A stretch of DNA of 56,105 nt from SAR86 cluster bacterium AG-422-E19 (lineage in GTDB: Bacteria; Pseudomonadota; Gammaproteobacteria; Magnimaribacterales; AG-339-G14): the NCBI GenBank assembly GCA_003213595.1, contig QCMR01000004.1:1-56105 (forward strand), written 5' to 3'. Shown here in pieces: positions 25,938-32,021 of the stretch (its first letter is position 1; each line of letters starts with the position of its first letter). A program made the translations under genes and the position numbers. The notes under the pieces were generated by a model that ran no database searches, was not told the DNA's origin, and worked only from the letters and a program-made list of their open reading frames with translations.

Positions 25938-26795
25938 ATGTCTATTTGGAACGACTTATCGTGGGTTGAGGGGATAAGAACTCCTTTTTTTAATTTCTTT
26001 TTTTACAATGTTTCGTTAACTGGATACCCAATCTTTTTATTTCTATTTATAGCCTTTGGATATTTTTTTTGGTCACCTCAAAGATTCTCAAGAGTCGCAA
26101 TGTTGCTATTTATTTCTGCTGTTATAAATAGCTTTTTAAAAGATTTGTTTCAGGATCCAAGACCTCCAGCAGACTTTATGTTGGATGAAGGAACCGGAAC
26201 TAGTTATGGTTGGCCCAGCGGACATGCTCAAATTGCTGTAACACTTTGGGGGCTTTTGGCGTACGAACTTAAAAATAAATTAATATCCATAGGAGCTATA
26301 TCTTTTATCTTCTTAGTAGCTTTTAGCAGAATGTATCTAGGCGTTCATGATTTAGGAGATGTACTTGCAGGCCTTTTAATAGGAAGCTTTATACTTTTTC
26401 TTTGGCATTGTGCAATTGTTTATAAGGTTTATGAAAAATTTGATAAGTTTTCATGGTTTTTTATTCTATTATCTTTTCAACTTTTTGTTCATTTGCTATA
26501 TCCAACTCACGAGGGACATGAAATATCAAATTGGTTACTCGGAGCTATGACAGGTTGGTTCGTTGGCGCATCAAACTTAGAAATATCTTCAAACAACATA
26601 GTTAAGTTCTTTTTATCGATAATGAGCACCTCTGCAGTTTTCTTCATGATGATATTTCTCTTTCAATTAGATGAGCTAGTAAAGTTATCTGGATTAATGT
26701 CTATTCTATATAGTTATTCCTTGGGTCTTTTCTTTTCAATTTTTGTTTCCTGGATTATTCCTAGATTTTGGAAATTTTTTAATCTTGCAAACTGA
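25938..26795 (+). CDS. PAP2-family membrane phosphatase
   Basis: A polytopic (about 7-8 helix) phosphatase of the PAP2 superfamily, 285 residues. The three motifs are complete: KDLFQDPRP (Lys68...Arg75-Pro76), PSGH (residues 93-96) and SRMYLGVHDLGD (Arg131, His137, Asp141). Such enzymes dephosphorylate lipid phosphates, including undecaprenyl pyrophosphate. The C-terminal third adds further hydrophobic helices of unknown role. It is 11 bases after the GST-like gene, and a second GST gene begins 4 bases after its stop. Confidence 0.87.
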   Translation: MSIWNDLSWVEGIRTPFFNFFFYNVSLTGYPIFLFLFIAFGYFFWSPQRFSRVAMLLFISAVINSFLKDLFQDPRPPADFMLDEGTGTSYGWPSGHAQIAVTLWGLLAYELKNKLISIGAISFIFLVAFSRMYLGVHDLGDVLAGLLIGSFILFLWHCAIVYKVYEKFDKFSWFFILLSFQLFVHLLYPTHEGHEISNWLLGAMTGWFVGASNLEISSNNIVKFFLSIMSTSAVFFMMIFLFQLDELVKLSGLMSILYSYSLGLFFSIFVSWIIPRFWKFFNLAN

Positions 26796-26799
26796 AAAG

Positions 26800-27429
26800 A
26801 TGAGCGCGTTATTAAAACTATGGGGAGCAGGGACAGCAAGGACCTTACGACCAATATGGATGGCAGAAGAGTTGGAAATAGATTATGAATTAATTCCAAT
26901 AGGGCCTCGAACTGGAGAAACTCAAACGAAAGAATTTACTTCTTTAAATCCTAAACAGAAAATTCCAACGATGCAGCACAAAGACTTAAACCTGTCAGAA
27001 AGTCTTGCAATATGTAAATATCTTCAAAGAAATTTTAAGTCAAAAAATATTTTTTTGCCTAATGATGAAGTTTCCATCGCAAAAGAAGAGGAATGGTGTA
27101 ACTTTATTTATGGTGAATTGGATGAAACTTCACTTTACGTGATGAGACGTCATTATGATTTGAAGAACATATACGGAGAATCTCCAGTAGTTGTAGAAGC
27201 TTGTAGACAATATTTTATAAAACAATTAAATGTCATTGAGGATCATCTAAAATCACAAGAGACAATTTTAAAAAATGGGTTTGGTTTAGCAGATATTTTT
27301 TTGATGACTTGTCTAGATTGGGCAATATTTTATGAATTTTCTCTCCCTAAAAATATTTCATCATATCGAGATAAAATATCCAAAAGAACTGCATATCAAA
27401 AGGCAATGAAGATAAACTATTCAAATTGA
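26800..27429 (+). CDS. Glutathione S-transferase-family protein
   Basis: A 209-residue cytosolic GST. The N-terminal domain KLWGAGTARTLRPIWMAEEL carries the Thr/Ser-type glutathione-activating position, followed by NPKQKIPTMQHKDLNLSESLAICKYL with the cis-Pro and Glu-Ser pair that binds glutathione. The C-terminal domain has NGFGLADIFLMTCLDWA (Asp N-cap). ATG 26800 is chosen over an in-frame TTG inside the PAP2 gene because SALLKLWGAG is the first beta strand. The CoA-transferase gene follows by 4 bases. Confidence 0.87.
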   Translation: MSALLKLWGAGTARTLRPIWMAEELEIDYELIPIGPRTGETQTKEFTSLNPKQKIPTMQHKDLNLSESLAICKYLQRNFKSKNIFLPNDEVSIAKEEEWCNFIYGELDETSLYVMRRHYDLKNIYGESPVVVEACRQYFIKQLNVIEDHLKSQETILKNGFGLADIFLMTCLDWAIFYEFSLPKNISSYRDKISKRTAYQKAMKINYSN

Positions 27430-27433
27430 AAAA

Positions 27434-28621
27434 ATGGGACCTTTAAAAGGAATTAAAGTTTTAGACCTGACAAGCATGGTTTCGGGTCCTGTGGGAGCAA
27501 TGATTTTGGCTGATCAAGGTGCAGATGTCATTAAAGTTGAACCAATAACAGGCGAATTGGTGAGGCATATGGCTGCTCCTCATAAAGGTGTAAACCCAGT
27601 ATTCTTTTCCTGTAATAGAGGAAAAAAATCTATAGCAATCGATTTGAAGTCGGAAGAGGGGAAAAAAATTCTCTTTCAATTAGCTAAAGATGCAGATGTG
27701 TTCATGCAAAATTTTAGACCCGGCGCCATCGATAGAATGGGTTTTGGTGAAAAGGAAATAAGAAAAATAAATCCTCAGATAATTTATACCTCTATTAGCG
27801 GGTTTGGAAATGATGGTCCTTACGCAAACTCAAGAGTTTACGATCCTGTTATCCAAGCTCTATCTGGAGCAACAGACATTCAAGCTGATAGAGACACCGG
27901 TAGACCTAAAATGTTTAGAATCATAATTGCAGATAAAGTAACTTCTTTAACTGCTGCTCAAGCAATTTCTTCTGCTTTATACGCAAGAGAAAAACACGGA
28001 ATTGGACAACACATTGAATTATCAATGCTTGATTCGATGATTTCTTTTTTTTGGCCCGAGGGAATGGCAGGAATAGTTTTTGCCGAAAATGAAATCGATG
28101 TTAGAAAACTGCAAGGCTCACAAGATTTAATTTATAAAGCAAAAGATAGATATATTACAGCTGGTGCGGTATCAGACGCTGAATGGAGAGGTATGTGTAA
28201 AGCCTTAAATCGAGAAGATTTGGTCGAGGATGAACGTTTTGCCTCACCTGCAGGACGGGTAAGTAATGCTCAGGAAAGAAAAGAAATCACTGGAGAGGAA
28301 ATTTCAAAATGGAATAGCAATGAAATTTTAGCTCGTTTTCAAGCTGAGGGAGTGCCCAGTGCACCCTTACTTGATCGCATGGAATTATTAGAAAATGAAC
28401 AAATAATTGCCAATGAATCTATTTTAAAATTGAATTATGAATCTTTTGGCGAAGTTCGTCAGGCAAGACCGGCAGCACGATTTGAGAAAACACCAAGTGA
28501 GATATCTAAGCCTGCACCAAAGCTTGGCGAACACACAGAGGAAATACTCTCAAAATTGGGATACTCAGAGGAAGAGATAACATCCCTCATTTCCGAAAAT
28601 AAAGTTTTTAAATTAAATTAG
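27434..28621 (+). CDS. Family III CoA-transferase (CaiB/BaiF)
   Basis: A 395-residue family III CoA-transferase. The N-terminus LKGIKVLDLTSMVSGPVGAMILADQGADVIKVE, the FFSCNRGKKSIAIDLKSEEG and QNFRPGAIDRMGFG segments, and SISGFGNDGPYANSRVYDPVIQA with its catalytic Asp (about residue 137) are diagnostic. It moves CoA between carboxylic acids without ATP; the acids cannot be told from sequence. The C-terminal PAPKLGEHTEEILSKLGYSEEEI is standard. It lies between GST genes, possibly feeding an acyl-CoA catabolic route. Confidence 0.9.
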   Translation: MGPLKGIKVLDLTSMVSGPVGAMILADQGADVIKVEPITGELVRHMAAPHKGVNPVFFSCNRGKKSIAIDLKSEEGKKILFQLAKDADVFMQNFRPGAIDRMGFGEKEIRKINPQIIYTSISGFGNDGPYANSRVYDPVIQALSGATDIQADRDTGRPKMFRIIIADKVTSLTAAQAISSALYAREKHGIGQHIELSMLDSMISFFWPEGMAGIVFAENEIDVRKLQGSQDLIYKAKDRYITAGAVSDAEWRGMCKALNREDLVEDERFASPAGRVSNAQERKEITGEEISKWNSNEILARFQAEGVPSAPLLDRMELLENEQIIANESILKLNYESFGEVRQARPAARFEKTPSEISKPAPKLGEHTEEILSKLGYSEEEITSLISENKVFKLN

Positions 28622-28723
28622 ATTTTATTCAGAACTTCTTTTTAAATTGATTTTATATTTTTTTATATTTACATTAATTTATTTACTTTGAGAGTATGAT
28701 TATTCAGTAAGTATTCAAAAAAT

Positions 28724-28728
28724 AGGAG
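28724..28728 (+). promoter_or_regulatory. Shine-Dalgarno site of yghU, with upstream -10 candidate
   Basis: AGGAG at 28724-28728 sits 7 bases before the ATG at 28736. TATGAT at 28695-28700 is a plausible -10, giving a 5' UTR of about 30 bases. This contrasts with several SD-less starts elsewhere in the window. Confidence 0.5.
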
Positions 28729-28735
28729 AAACTTC

Positions 28736-29578
28736 ATGTCAGACGAAAAATATTCACCTCCAAAAGTATGGACTTGGGATCAAGAAAGCGGTGGTAGATT
28801 TGCAAACATAAATAGGCCAATTTCTGGAGCAACGCATGACAAAGAACTGCCTGTGGGAAAACATCCCATGCAACTCTATTCACTTGGAACACCAAATGGA
28901 GTTAAGGTCACTGTCCTTCTTGAAGAACTTTTAGCTTTGGGACATGAAGGTGCCGAATATGATGCATATCTGATTAACATCGGAAATGGCGATCAATTTG
29001 GAAGCGGTTTTGTTGAAATAAATCCAAATTCTAAAATTCCCGCTCTTTTAGACAGAAGTTCAGAGCCTCACACCAGAGTCTTTGAATCTGGTGCAATATT
29101 GGTTTACCTTGCAGAGAAGTTTGGTGAGTTTATTCCAACCGATCCATCAGCAAGAGCCGAATGTATGTCTTGGCTTTTCTGGCAAATGGGTAGCGCTCCC
29201 TACTTGGGTGGGGGATTTGGACACTTTTATGCCTATGCTCCCGAAAAATTCGAATATCCTATTAATCGATTTGCTATGGAAGTTAAGCGTCAATTGGACG
29301 TCTTGGATAAGAATTTAGAAAACAGAAAGTTTATTTGTGGTGATGAATACAATATTGCCGATATGGCAATTCATCCTTGGTATGGTTATTTGGTGTTGAA
29401 AAATGCATATAACGCTGCCGAATTTTTAGATGTTAAATCCTATAAAAACGTTGTTCGTTGGGCTGAGGAAATTTCAGAGAGACCCGCCTTTAAAAGAGGA
29501 GCTAGAGTAGGGCGACCTCCCAGTGGACCAGAAGATAATGCAATTCCTGAAAGGCATGATGCCAGTGACCTTGATTAA
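28736..29578 (+). CDS. yghU: GST-like disulfide-bond oxidoreductase YghU
   Basis: The 280-residue sequence is close to E. coli YghU throughout: KVWTWDQESGGRFANINRPI, ELPVGKHPMQLYSLGTPNG, SGFVEINPNSKIPALLD, GAILVYLAEKFGEF, YLGGGFGHFYAYAPEK and the C-terminal ERHDASD. YghU (Nu-class GST) binds two glutathiones and has disulfide-bond reductase and peroxidase activity, which suggests a thiol redox or oxidative-stress role. It has a good SD and is followed after 2 bases by another GST. Confidence 0.94.
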   Translation: MSDEKYSPPKVWTWDQESGGRFANINRPISGATHDKELPVGKHPMQLYSLGTPNGVKVTVLLEELLALGHEGAEYDAYLINIGNGDQFGSGFVEINPNSKIPALLDRSSEPHTRVFESGAILVYLAEKFGEFIPTDPSARAECMSWLFWQMGSAPYLGGGFGHFYAYAPEKFEYPINRFAMEVKRQLDVLDKNLENRKFICGDEYNIADMAIHPWYGYLVLKNAYNAAEFLDVKSYKNVVRWAEEISERPAFKRGARVGRPPSGPEDNAIPERHDASDLD

Positions 29579-29580
29579 AA

Positions 29581-30333
29581 ATGACCAGTAAACTTAAGAT
29601 TTTCGGTGTTCCAATGTCTCAGGCAGTAAGGACTGTTCTATGGATGATGCTTTATAAAAAATTACCTTTTGAGTTGATCATCACTGCACCAGGTTCTCCA
29701 AAAGAAAACGGAACTCGTCATCCTTCTTATTTGGAAAAATATCCCAATGGCACTATTCCTGGCCTAGAAGATCCTGAAACTGGATATTTATTATCGGAGT
29801 CGATAGCAATCATGTGTTACTTATGTAACAAACACAAATGGGACGACTTATATCCAGAAGACCCTGAACTGAGAGGTAAAGTTGACCATTACCTTCACTA
29901 TCATCATCGAAGTATCAAAGAGGCATCTGCTGGATATTTTGCACCAATTTTAAGACCTGACTTAGGACTTTCAGAAGACCTAATCAATATGTCCCAAAGA
30001 ATATATAACAACGCTCTTAAAGCACTAGAAACTCAGTGGCTTAAAAAAAACAAATTTATTGCAGGAGACCATGTCACCATTGCAGACTTTTCAGCGTACG
30101 TTGAAATTGCTCAACTGAATACGCAATTTACTAATTTATTTGATTACAGCGAATTTGAAAATCTAAGCCGTTGGCTGAAGGATATGAGCGAACTCCCCTA
30201 TCATGATGATGTTCATATGGTTTTAACCAAAATGGGCGATATAAGTGAAACGATTCCCGAAATGGAAATTATCATGAAAGCCAATTTAGAGACTTTCAGT
30301 CATTTGAATGAAATTGCTTCGAAACTAGATTGA
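29581..30333 (+). CDS. Glutathione S-transferase, theta-like
   Basis: A 250-residue GST. The first strand KLKIFGVPMSQAVRTVLWMML carries the Ser typical of theta/Ser-type GSTs, and NGTIPGLEDPETGYLLSESIAIMCYL holds the cis-Pro and Glu-Ser glutathione-binding pair. The helical half includes KFIAGDHVTIADFSAYVEI. The gene begins 2 bases after yghU, so the two are co-transcribed. A small hairpin terminator overlaps the end of the convergent csoR-like gene. Confidence 0.87.
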   Translation: MTSKLKIFGVPMSQAVRTVLWMMLYKKLPFELIITAPGSPKENGTRHPSYLEKYPNGTIPGLEDPETGYLLSESIAIMCYLCNKHKWDDLYPEDPELRGKVDHYLHYHHRSIKEASAGYFAPILRPDLGLSEDLINMSQRIYNNALKALETQWLKKNKFIAGDHVTIADFSAYVEIAQLNTQFTNLFDYSEFENLSRWLKDMSELPYHDDVHMVLTKMGDISETIPEMEIIMKANLETFSHLNEIASKLD

Positions 30334-30336
30334 CGA

Positions 30337-30358
30337 TCCTTATCTTTTAAGGACTTTT
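30337..30358 (+). terminator. Probable intrinsic terminator after the GST pair
   Basis: TCCTTA (30337-30342) and TAAGGA (30348-30353) form a 6-bp stem with loop TCTTT, followed by CTTTT. It lies 4 bases after the GST stop and inside the 3' end of the convergent csoR-like gene. The stem is short and AT-rich, so it would be modest. Confidence 0.4.
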
Positions 30359-30600
30359 ATTATCTCTTCGACCTTTCTTTCGAACTCTTTTTCTCCTTTC
30401 AAAGAGTCCTTAACACATTCCTCTAGATGTGTTTTTAAGATTTTCCCTTCCACTGAAGCAATGGATTTTCTAACAGCTTTGATTTGATTGAGTATATCGA
30501 CACAGTATTTCTCTTCTTCAATCATTTTAGCGATACCTCTGAGTTGACCTTCAATCCGCCTTACACTTGATAATTCTTTTTTATGACTGGGATGACTCAT
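30340..30600 (-). CDS. CsoR/RcnR/FrmR-family metal-sensing repressor, CsoR (copper) type
   Basis: An 86-residue all-helical DUF156 repressor. The Cu(I)-site pattern Cys-His-Cys is visible as C33 (KYCVDIL), H58 and C62 (KTHLEECV), which is the CsoR arrangement rather than RcnR (Cys-His-His) or FrmR. The N-terminus SHPSHKKELSSVRRIEGQLRGI provides the basic DNA-binding face. It is the last gene of a four-gene minus-strand operon, 7 bases after the MerT-like gene. A CsoR-type palindrome lies in front of the operon at 31985-32003, so autoregulation is likely. Copper as the ligand is inferred from the residue pattern. Confidence 0.88.
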   Translation of the reverse strand: MSHPSHKKELSSVRRIEGQLRGIAKMIEEEKYCVDILNQIKAVRKSIASVEGKILKTHLEECVKDSLKGEKEFERKVEEIIKVLKR

Positions 30601-30607
30601 GATTTAT

Positions 30608-30973
30608 TTAAATGATATTGGGAATGAGGTAAGTGAATATTGTAGCAAACGTAAAGAGAATAACTGAAAAATAGTAAATTGACCTTGAACGTTTTCTGGT
30701 TTGAAGACAAATTCTCCCTAACTCGGGATCTGCAGGACAAGGAAGATAATAGGTTCTGTAATTTATGTAGCCAGCAAAAACCAATATAAGAAGAGATACC
30801 AAAGTTATAGAAACTTTGTATTTTGAAATCACTACCAAAAAAGGGAATATAGAAATGATGCTGGCAAAAGTTGCTCCTGCTCCAATAACAATAAATACCG
30901 CAGGTAGTGCACAACATATCAATGTAGATGAAGATGCAAACAAAGATATGAGATTAGCAGATCGGTCAAACAT
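30608..30973 (-). CDS. MerT-like membrane metal transporter
   Basis: A 121-residue protein with about four hydrophobic segments. TLICCALPAVFIVIGAGATFA has the vicinal Cys20-Cys21 in the first helix, as in mercuric transporter MerT. The loop after helix 3 carries Cys79 and Cys89 (PCPADPELGRIC), matching MerT's second, cytoplasmic Cys pair in position. The final helix ends YLIPNII, like MerT's last helix. It lies 1 base after the MerP-like gene. Mercury is not certain: the neighbouring regulator is CsoR-like rather than MerR and no merA is nearby, so Cu(I) or another soft metal is possible. Confidence 0.72.
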   Translation of the reverse strand: MFDRSANLISLFASSSTLICCALPAVFIVIGAGATFASIISIFPFLVVISKYKVSITLVSLLILVFAGYINYRTYYLPCPADPELGRICLQTRKRSRSIYYFSVILFTFATIFTYLIPNII

Positions 30974-30974
30974 G

Positions 30975-31382
30975 TTAAATTTTCATCAGCTTATAGTCTG
31001 TTGCGTTTTGACCATTCATTAATATTTTTTCTTTGATTTCCTTAAATTCAATTTTCTTATTTAAAGAATAGGCAATCACAACTTTTCCATTTTCAAGGTC
31101 AACATCTATTTTTTTTACCTTGGTATCTTTAAGAAAAGCCTTTTCGATACCTCGGGCACAAAAATCACACACCATGCCTTGAACATTAATTATTGCAACT
31201 TGAACATCTCTAAGATTTTTTTTAAATTCATCGAACCTTTCTTTATCTAATTTGAATTTTTTTCCGTCCACGTAAACATCATTTTGATGAACTGTATGAC
31301 CGTGGTGCTCATGGGAATCATGATTTTTTTCAGCAAAAATTATTGACGCCATGAACATTAAAATTAAACATATTAGTCTCAT
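30975..31382 (-). CDS. Exported His-rich HMA-domain (MerP-like) metal-binding protein
   Basis: A 135-residue protein with a signal peptide (MRLICLILMFMASIIFA, cleavage likely before Glu18). A His-rich stretch follows, with seven His between residues 21 and 32 (HDSHEHHGHTVH). A heavy-metal-associated domain has the metal motif GMVCDFC (Cys72, Cys75) in VQGMVCDFCARGIEKAFL. It would bind a soft metal in the periplasm and pass it to the MerT-like protein. AGGAG precedes the ATG. It lies 9 bases after the predicted outer-membrane protein gene. The His-rich linker before the HMA domain is an addition compared with MerP. Confidence 0.82.
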   Translation of the reverse strand: MRLICLILMFMASIIFAEKNHDSHEHHGHTVHQNDVYVDGKKFKLDKERFDEFKKNLRDVQVAIINVQGMVCDFCARGIEKAFLKDTKVKKIDVDLENGKVVIAYSLNKKIEFKEIKEKILMNGQNATDYKLMKI

Positions 31383-31391
31383 ATTTACTCC

Positions 31392-31961
31392 TTAAAATCT
31401 GTACATGAGATGAGCATCAGTTCTTGTTTTGTTGTTGTAACCAAGCTCGATTAAAAAATCACCTTTGAAAAATTTAATTACAGGATAAGTTGACCAGCTA
31501 TCTCCTAAAGAATTCTTCTTTGTTTTGAACATCAACCAGGTATGCAAGTCGCCATATTTTCCTAGGTAAGGCGCTATGCCAAATTGAAGATATTTTTCAG
31601 AAAAATCTTCAAAGTCATTGAAGCTTTCTTTATATCCAAAGCCAACAAACCATCTTCTTGTTTCCCAATCACCGTGGAGACCATAAAAATGACGATCAAA
31701 GTTTTCAGGATCAAGACCTGATTGAAAATATAAATTGCTTTGAGAATTTTGTGTATTTTTTCTGTTTAGTAAATAAGTAAATCTAAAAAAAGAATACTCA
31801 TCATCAAAATAATCATCTTTTGCTACTTCCAAGCCTACTGAATACTTAAAACTAGGAGAATAATGAAAATAGACCGAGTCTTTGTAAATATCAGAATGAG
31901 ACATGAGGGTGAATCCTTCTGGATAAGAAATTGATCTTGCTTGACTATACAGAGAAGCCAT
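31392..31961 (-). CDS. Predicted outer-membrane beta-barrel protein of unknown family, first gene of the metal operon
   Basis: A 189-residue protein I cannot assign to a named family. It is rich in alternating aromatic/polar segments (SVYFHYSPSFKYSVGLEVAK, RRWFVGFGYKESF, DFLIELGYNNKTRTDAHLMYRF) and ends in Phe, typical of outer-membrane beta-barrels. From the ATG at 31961 the N-terminus (MASLYSQARS) lacks a signal sequence. Just upstream, in another frame, lies MGIRIIFFF before a T9 run; one extra T would fuse it to CLMASLYSQA to give an ideal signal peptide. The gene may therefore be frameshifted at the homopolymer or expressed by slippage. Its place ahead of the MerP/MerT-like genes suggests passage of metal or organometal across the outer membrane (inference). 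Confidence 0.65.
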   Translation of the reverse strand: MASLYSQARSISYPEGFTLMSHSDIYKDSVYFHYSPSFKYSVGLEVAKDDYFDDEYSFFRFTYLLNRKNTQNSQSNLYFQSGLDPENFDRHFYGLHGDWETRRWFVGFGYKESFNDFEDFSEKYLQFGIAPYLGKYGDLHTWLMFKTKKNSLGDSWSTYPVIKFFKGDFLIELGYNNKTRTDAHLMYRF

Positions 31962-31993
31962 TAAGCAAAAAAAAATATTATTCTTATACCCAT
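31961..31993 (-). CDS. Short ORF (10 codons) overlapping the operon start: leader peptide or out-of-frame signal peptide
   Basis: On the minus strand an ATG at 31993 encodes M-G-I-R-I-I-F-F-F-A and stops at TAA, which shares one base with the ATG of the following gene (TAATG). Nine T's (plus-strand A's at 31967-31975) encode the Phe run. The ORF also lies inside the CsoR-type palindrome. It is either a coupled leader peptide or the true N-terminus displaced by a one-base homopolymer change. Confidence 0.3.
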   Translation of the reverse strand: MGIRIIFFFA

Positions 31994-32003
31994 GGGGGGT
32001 ATA
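31985..32003 (-). promoter_or_regulatory. CsoR-type operator palindrome
   Basis: The plus strand reads TATACCC-ATGGG-GGGTATA: 7-bp inverted arms with a 5-base G-rich centre. This G/C-run-flanked-by-TA pattern is that of CsoR-family operators (TACCCC...GGGGTA type). On the minus strand it lies between a possible -35 (TTGTAA) and -10 (TATAAG, 18-bp spacer), or overlaps an alternative -10 (TACTAT) just upstream. Either position would let a bound repressor block the four-gene operon. Confidence 0.7.
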
Positions 32004-32021
32004 GTATTACAATTTTGGAAT

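Follow-up and report, generated by a model that had tools for sequence, protein, structure and literature searches.

A CsoR-type operon of MerT-like, HMA and predicted outer-membrane proteins, nearly exclusive of heavy-metal P-type ATPases, as a candidate copper-detoxification system of marine proteobacteria

Heavy-metal P-type ATPases are a common route for clearing cytosolic copper. In the csoR-copZA and csoR-cueA loci of Streptomyces and Bradyrhizobium such an exporter is controlled by the repressor CsoR; the accessible text of PMC3902906 gives ATATACCCCTNAGGGGTATAT as the Streptomyces CsoR consensus, of which the TAC-X9-GTA repeat is needed, and that of PMC5057107 gives TATACCCCTACCGGGTATA as the csoR box controlling a copper-induced divergon in Bradyrhizobium. 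Leaderless transcripts under CsoR-family control are also already known, as reported in the available portions of PMC5057107 and, for nreA, of PMC12724321. Here we analyse a four-gene operon on the minus strand (30340-32003) of the window, by which we mean the whole stretch of 56,105 nucleotides formed by contig QCMR01000004.1 of SAR86 cluster bacterium AG-422-E19 (GCA_003213595.1; a genome of 1.11 Mb in 18 contigs, 91% complete). An initial annotation, made from the letters alone, had seen in it a system for copper or another soft metal, built from mer-like transport parts under CsoR control, a proposal now supported by the comparison of 80 loci, by their promoters and by the distribution of ATPases. 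We lean, with a little more confidence than doubt, towards the view that the operon is a Cu(I)-induced copper-detoxification system that stands in for a CopA-type ATPase in many marine proteobacteria. That annotation knew of no described system with this combination, and we too found no description of the four-gene operon in open-licence PMC full text; PMC4771312, which compares SAR11 with Roseobacter for their genes of metal uptake, has CopA as background, and nothing on the operon was seen in the part available.

Two peptide patterns were matched by 251 stretches in 84,980 named species genomes; 234 of these encode a relative of the first gene product (below OMP, for outer-membrane protein), and the best 80 were kept. 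The complete set of four genes is present in 74 of these best 80 of 234 (in one of them a contig end truncates csoR), and in 74/74 complete loci the genes lie on one strand in the order OMP, HMA protein, MerT-like protein and CsoR, the order claimed for the window, which rules out a chance assemblage. Four of the six incomplete loci (L049, L060, L064 and L099) stop at or near a contig end. By their record titles, the kept loci come from Gammaproteobacteria (SAR86, SAR92/Porticoccaceae, OM182, K189A and others) and from Alphaproteobacteria, among them IMCC14465, a PS1-clade metagenome-assembled genome (MAG) and a Rhodobiaceae MAG. Within what we call the SAR86 order (61 genomes: that of the window plus 60 relatives that share its genus, family or order), the MerT-like protein is matched in 24 genomes, all with four genes at the locus, and a separate search with PF02583 returned the identical 24 genomes with one copy each; two more (G019 and G055), where a contig ends, have only genes one and two, so that 26/61 carry the operon or its first genes. 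A class sample of 369 genomes contains 11 with OMP, six of them with all four genes. The four-gene operon is thus real and widely conserved. In a concatenated tree of 73 loci the SAR86 sequences are mixed with those of SAR92/Porticoccaceae, a hint of transfer between lineages that we do not use as evidence. Cargo of mobile elements was considered and rejected: no OMP relative was found in viral contigs (by profile search, in which 19 pattern matches were not confirmed) or in plasmids (searched with the window protein only).

In the window, all four close-set open reading frames (ORFs) of the initial annotation are present, separated by gaps of 9, 1 and 7 nt from the first gene to the last, together with the following elements:

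31985-32003, minus strand: CsoR-type operator TATACCC-CCCAT-GGGTATA, with the conserved start codon inside it; 0 mismatches; the csoR box of Bradyrhizobium has these half-sites and this spacing.
32001-32006, minus strand: putative -10 hexamer TACTAT, 7 nt before the ATG, from column counts across 78 loci.
31961-31993, minus strand: conserved start ATG (31991-31993) and a leader frame of ten codons, MGIRIIFFFA-stop, whose stop overlaps the next ATG (TAATG).
31967-31975, minus strand: T9 tract in the leader frame, the same in five genomes of the clade.
31392-31961, minus strand: body of the first gene, a predicted outer-membrane protein (OMP) of 189 aa from an unnamed family, from the ORF and its comparison.
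30975-31382, minus strand: His-rich protein of 135 aa, whose start resembles a signal peptide and whose single HMA domain (PF00403) holds GMVCDFC.
30608-30973, minus strand: MerT-like membrane protein of 121 aa, with CC at 20/21 in the first transmembrane helix (TM1) and C79 and C89 in a positive loop (PF02411, below cut-off).
30340-30600, minus strand: CsoR-type repressor of 86 aa (PF02583), with C33, H58 and C62.

One support of the functional reading is the distribution of heavy-metal P-type ATPases. Profile TIGR01525 finds none in 61 SAR86-order genomes, with 14/14 control genomes positive. Across the class sample it is matched in 326/369 genomes, 296 of them above cut-off; these 296 all fall among the 358 genomes that lack OMP, against 0/11 with OMP. 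The association is significant by the Fisher test (p 1e-8), also without the SAR86 order (p 1e-6) and with the nine OMP-positive families counted once against single genomes (p 2e-7), this family counting being the only correction for phylogeny, a limit to be added to the points against our reading gathered below. Eight of the 11 have no ATPase match (five are shown, and G201, G313 and G344 are absent from the match list), and the matches in the other three are weak by E-value (G103, 3e-4; G189, 1e-18; G302, 1e-5). In family f134 the ATPase is present, without an OMP match, in G190; G302 has a distant OMP and no strong ATPase, and G397, of the same genus as G302 and 71% complete, has neither. 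Beyond SAR86 we took 28 genomes of the 80 loci, none titled SAR86 and of completeness not given, and found an ATPase above cut-off in one and no match in 13. Two loci of that set, L035 and L099, are by sequence G105 and G063 of the class sample, so that the two samples overlap, and for this reason a Fisher test on the 28 genomes is not counted as evidence. The single positive is IMCC14465 (L160, 6348-14384), where the ATPase lies, as judged by eye, beside CusCBA-like genes and an integrase-like ORF. On these counts the operon and ATPases of the CopA class are almost mutually exclusive. The surroundings of the IMCC14465 ATPase resemble, again by eye, an acquired metal-resistance island. A heavy-metal RND pump as the alternative outlet was set aside, since 0/61 genomes have one over cut-off (only 3/14 controls do).

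The following observations weigh against the operon as a substitute for CopA. Half of the 28 genomes outside SAR86 (14/28) have weak partial ATPase matches of 19-31 bits, and the exclusion is not copper-specific, because TIGR01525 includes Zn/Cd ATPases. Proteins of the RND type, below cut-off and with no substrate assigned, occur in 57/61 SAR86-order genomes. Moreover, 35 of these 61 have neither the operon nor an ATPase, so that absence of CopA does not by itself call for the operon, and although COX2 is encoded in 59/61, the operon is therefore not obligatory. CopA could have been lost by genome streamlining rather than by replacement. Two of the 80 loci (L091 and L092) have the operator box and no csoR in the adjoining sequence; of the 11 OMP-positive genomes in the class sample, G063 has OMP alone near a contig end, and four have only distant homologues (E about 1e-38, against <=1e-74 for the rest). 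The first gene of the window is itself frameshifted, as detailed below, MerT is known as an importer and not as an exporter, and we found no metal data for any member of the operon.

The last point but one deserves attention, because the same parts might work in the direction of mer: copper would pass from OMP to the HMA protein, to the MerT-like protein and into the cytosol to feed cuproenzymes, with CsoR as a tuner. MerT and MerP are importers, a COX2-type oxidase is encoded in 59/61 hosts, and genes of the MerC family and for TonB receptors lie near the operon in some loci. The COX2 family, it must be said, includes quinol oxidases without copper A, and most COX2-encoding genomes of the order (34/59) are without the operon. 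Derepression of CsoR at Cu(I) excess has the wrong sense for import. We think that import or delivery of copper is unlikely; CsoR control, which switches genes on at too high a level of cytosolic Cu(I), argues for export.

That the regulator is of the CsoR type, with a Cys-His-Cys site, is borne out by profile and alignment. It scores 95.5 bits against PF02583 (cut-off 22.8), and the triad C-x24-H-x3-C is present in 73/73 intact copies and aligns with that of 2hh7 and 4adz, in which these residues bind Cu(I). Among solved structures, the four that match it best are CsoRs, headed by 4adz; InrS and the CsoR of M. tuberculosis (2hh7) come next and FrmR is last. The repressor reaches no NCBIfam subfamily cut-off, RicR (NF052430) being the best with 76.9 against 175 bits, and remains below both equivalog cut-offs for FrmR (48.5 against 133) and RcnR (41 against 138). 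Judged by domain, triad and operator, the repressor thus appears to belong to the Cu(I)-sensing branch of the CsoR family.

The two proteins encoded ahead of it correspond to what had been claimed, namely an exported-looking, His-rich HMA protein and a MerT-like protein with two cysteine pairs. The former begins like a signal peptide and scores 39.9 bits against PF00403 (cut-off 24.8); GMVCDFC is found in 79/79 HMA proteins, preceded by 1-10 His. Among solved structures, its profile ranks Cu-ATPase domains and CopZ before MerP, and with MerP profile TIGR02052 it gives 20.7 against 92.55 bits, under the equivalog cut-off. The latter scores 22.3 bits with PF02411, under the cut-off of 32.9, hence "MerT-like" is the right label and "MerT" is not. 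In MerT, vicinal cysteines lie in TM1 and a second pair in the loop between TM2 and TM3; here CC20/21 and C79/C89 are invariant in 18 aligned sequences, and the C79/C89 loop is bordered by R/K residues (from hydropathy and charge), so that it is probably cytoplasmic, as in MerT. One could imagine that these proteins form only a periplasmic copper buffer, in which the HMA protein and OMP bind copper while the MerT-like protein retrieves or senses it without any export. The multi-His region ahead of the HMA domain and the absence of an energy-coupled transporter from the operon would suit such a buffer; however, the operon has a conserved membrane protein whose two cysteine pairs are positioned like those of MerT, which suggests that the membrane is crossed, and of the alternatives weighed here we find this one the least probable.

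An ordinary mer operon is ruled out by the CsoR regulator, by the sub-cut-off scores with MerT and MerP, and by the lack of a MerA over cut-off: in the genome of the window (91% complete) only two lower hits were obtained, of 52.5 and 41.2 against 454 bits, and the absence of merA noted from the locus thus extends to that assembly at the family cut-off. The metal handled might also be a soft one other than copper (Hg(II), Ag(I), Zn(II) or Cd(II)), CsoR-like repressors and HMA proteins not being copper-only. The MerT-like parts speak for this, as do the Zn/Cd pumps among the excluded ATPases and the Bradyrhizobium CsoR, which the available part of PMC5057107 reports to be responsive to Zn, Cd and Cu. 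Against it stand the missing MerA, the CsoR-type triad with its Cu-type operator, and an HMA domain nearest, among solved structures, to Cu ATPases and Cu chaperones. We consider a metal other than copper improbable, though somewhat less so than a mere buffer.

The operator gives further support to a copper-detoxification system. Upstream sequence exists for 78 of the 80 loci (L085 and L103 are without it), and in 78/78 TACCC-N4/5-GGGTA stands at the first gene, in a 15-nt form in 75 and a 14-nt form in three (L073, L091 and L092), each time with the start codon inside (ATG in 77, GTG in one). The type 2 operator, defined as TAC-X9-GTA in the accessible text of PMC3902906, is exact in 75/78 boxes, with X8 in three. 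The commonest core is TACCCCCCATGGGTA (39/78) and the second TACCCCCTATGGGTA (27/78), one base off the core of the Streptomyces copZA1 constructs, TACCCCCTAGGGGTA, given in the same text. In the window the operator is the sole match at <=2 mismatches, with 0.03 expected (3/100 shuffles had one). Throughout the SAR86 order, the exact pattern ATACCCN5GGGTAT yields 29 sites in 27/61 genomes, 26 of them at the start of the operon, and a reversed-pattern control yields 0; the three other sites (one in G040, two in G043) were considered as further members of the regulon and dismissed, as all lie within unrelated genes. Among the distant homologues, L115 has a partial CsoR match at the end of its stretch and keeps the box, whereas L113, L114 and L116 have no CsoR match and no box (in L113 and L116, AGGAG or GGAG is in its place); this suggests that box and repressor travel together, L091 and L092 being the exceptions.

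Upstream of the start codon, columns -13 to -8 read T69 A75 A45 T45 A74 T75 of 78, and the -10 hexamer ends 7 nt before the ATG in 75/78 loci, so that transcription is expected to start at the ATG and the operon mRNA is predicted to be leaderless. A Shine-Dalgarno-like motif occurs in only 2/78 loci. Perfect TTGACA at a suitable spacing is found in 16/78, and 33/78 have three matching bases or fewer at that place; the operon of the window has no good -35, and a consensus promoter scan of the window gave one site, located elsewhere (1.7 expected), and none at the operon start. Since the operator is fused with the start codon, the repressor site would dictate the first three codons (Met-Gly-Ile/Met). 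In a limited search of open-licence PMC full text we found no case of a start codon inside a CsoR operator.

The first gene calls for more caution. The 189-aa ORF is indeed there, but it lacks the start and the N-terminal extension of its relatives. Most of these are about 200 aa long, with an in-frame extension that resembles a signal peptide, and the frame is open from the conserved start in 74/78 loci; five genomes (G000, which is that of the window, G001, G003, G004 and G008) have MGIRIIFFFA-stop as the frame of the conserved ATG, with OMP resuming one base off after T9, while in G007 and other relatives the gene is in frame. The same T9 in five genomes from different assemblies makes a sequencing error unlikely. 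A pseudogene is unlikely too: the ratio of nonsynonymous to synonymous divergence (ω) for the OMP body is 0.03-0.12, indicating purifying selection, in nine comparisons with synonymous divergence (dS) above 0 among the five frameshifted genomes (dS is 0, with four differences, between G004 and G000), and 0.07-0.08 for these genomes against G007. Given such low ω, the frameshifted OMP is probably still in use in the clade of the window. Its expression could depend on slippage at the T9 tract, on a -1 frameshift at T-TTT-TTT, or on re-initiation at TAATG; the last of these would yield an OMP without signal peptide.

As to its location, the 189-aa protein has no Pfam match, and its relatives have no consistent one (1/21 members, a single hit at E 0.15). 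Nineteen in-frame N-termini look like signal peptides when read by eye, the last residue is Phe in 78/80 proteins, the mature part is without Cys in 76/80, and strand-like alternation is in weak excess, with a mean z of 1.5 where the other three proteins give -0.9, -0.1 and 0.2 (scored on every fourth sequence, 19-20 per protein). An outer-membrane location is thus predicted from the N-termini of the relatives, the terminal Phe and the alternation, and nothing in the homologues points to an unrelated, cytoplasmic protein. The route through both membranes that the initial annotation had proposed is plausible, its outer part depending on that prediction.

Operon unity, the class of the repressor, the operator, the promoter geometry and the near-exclusion of P1B ATPases are supported by comparing sequences; the choice of copper, the export direction, the cysteine relay and the fold and role of the barrel are what we infer. 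The system could work as follows. As long as copper is not in excess, apo-CsoR would sit on the operator, which reaches from the -10 box across the start codon, and block transcription. Excess cytosolic Cu(I) would fill Cys33-His58-Cys62 and release CsoR, upon which RNA polymerase would start at or next to the ATG and produce a leaderless mRNA for all four genes, csoR being included and providing negative feedback. The MerT-like protein may then pick up Cu(I) at its cytoplasm-facing Cys79/Cys89 loop; from there the ion would go to Cys20-Cys21 in TM1 and next to the periplasmic His-rich HMA protein, as with MerP and MerT in reverse, and a small outer-membrane barrel may help to bind or remove copper at the outer membrane. 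A bolder version, which we put forward tentatively and would not yet bet on, is that this constitutes a new class of exporter, an ATPase-independent relay of a reversed MerT-like protein, a periplasmic HMA carrier and a small outer-membrane barrel, which replaced CopA across unrelated ocean oligotrophs and has its CsoR operator fused to a leaderless start codon.

If copper detoxification by this operon is correct, it would explain how some abundant surface-ocean bacteria handle copper without a P-type pump, it would put MerT-type proteins to work outside mercury reduction, and the operon could serve to trace copper stress in ocean metagenomes. Holding the start codon inside the operator is a compact way of regulation that lends itself to direct testing, and the first gene in the clade of the window, frameshifted yet selected, amounts to a natural experiment on slippage in a streamlined genome.

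Several neighbours may be mentioned. A PepSY-TM-like gene, likely a fifth gene of the operon, directly follows csoR in 14/80 loci (L056, L059, L061, L062, L068, L080, L081, L083, L088, L089, L096, L098, L101 and L102) and in 5/80 is found upstream, on the opposite strand; the one member scanned scores 28.2 bits, just under the cut-off of 28.8. Genes for MerC-like membrane proteins are near the operon in six loci (L031, L039, L056, L059, L062 and L081); the single member scanned scores 89 bits against a cut-off of 27.6. Other loci have TonB-receptor-like genes nearby. In L113 and L116, the distant OMP-HMA-MerT sets are preceded by a small Cys/His-rich protein without Pfam name. Beside the operon in the window (26743-30333) we recognised, by eye only, three glutathione S-transferase-like ORFs and a CoA-transferase-like ORF (27434-28621).

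Compared with known systems, the operon shares with merT/merP a MerT-like protein with vicinal cysteines in TM1 and a probably cytoplasmic pair of loop cysteines, next to an HMA protein; it differs from the mer operon in having CsoR and not MerR, no merA over cut-off, a MerT score under the Pfam cut-off, a His-rich extension on the HMA protein and an outer-membrane candidate as first gene. Its HMA domain is also related to those of the MerTP and CopZ-type HMA proteins (NCBIfam NF033556 and NF033795), with scores far under the cut-offs (29.9/180 and 44.6/91). The nreAXY operon of Mesorhizobium, as presented in the accessible part of PMC12724321, has in common a repressor of the CsoR/RcnR family and a leaderless mRNA, but it is Ni-responsive, its operator lies between -35 and -10 and does not cover the start codon, and its transport genes are others. 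The csoR-copZA and csoR-cueA loci, as far as the available text of PMC3902906 and PMC5057107 goes, share the class of CsoR and the type 2 operator TAC-X9-GTA, the Bradyrhizobium box having identical half-sites with a 5-nt spacer and its csoR mRNA being reported as leaderless; however, they control a CopA or CueA exporter, whereas the operon described here contains no ATPase, places a MerT-like set under CsoR, and has its start codon inside the operator.

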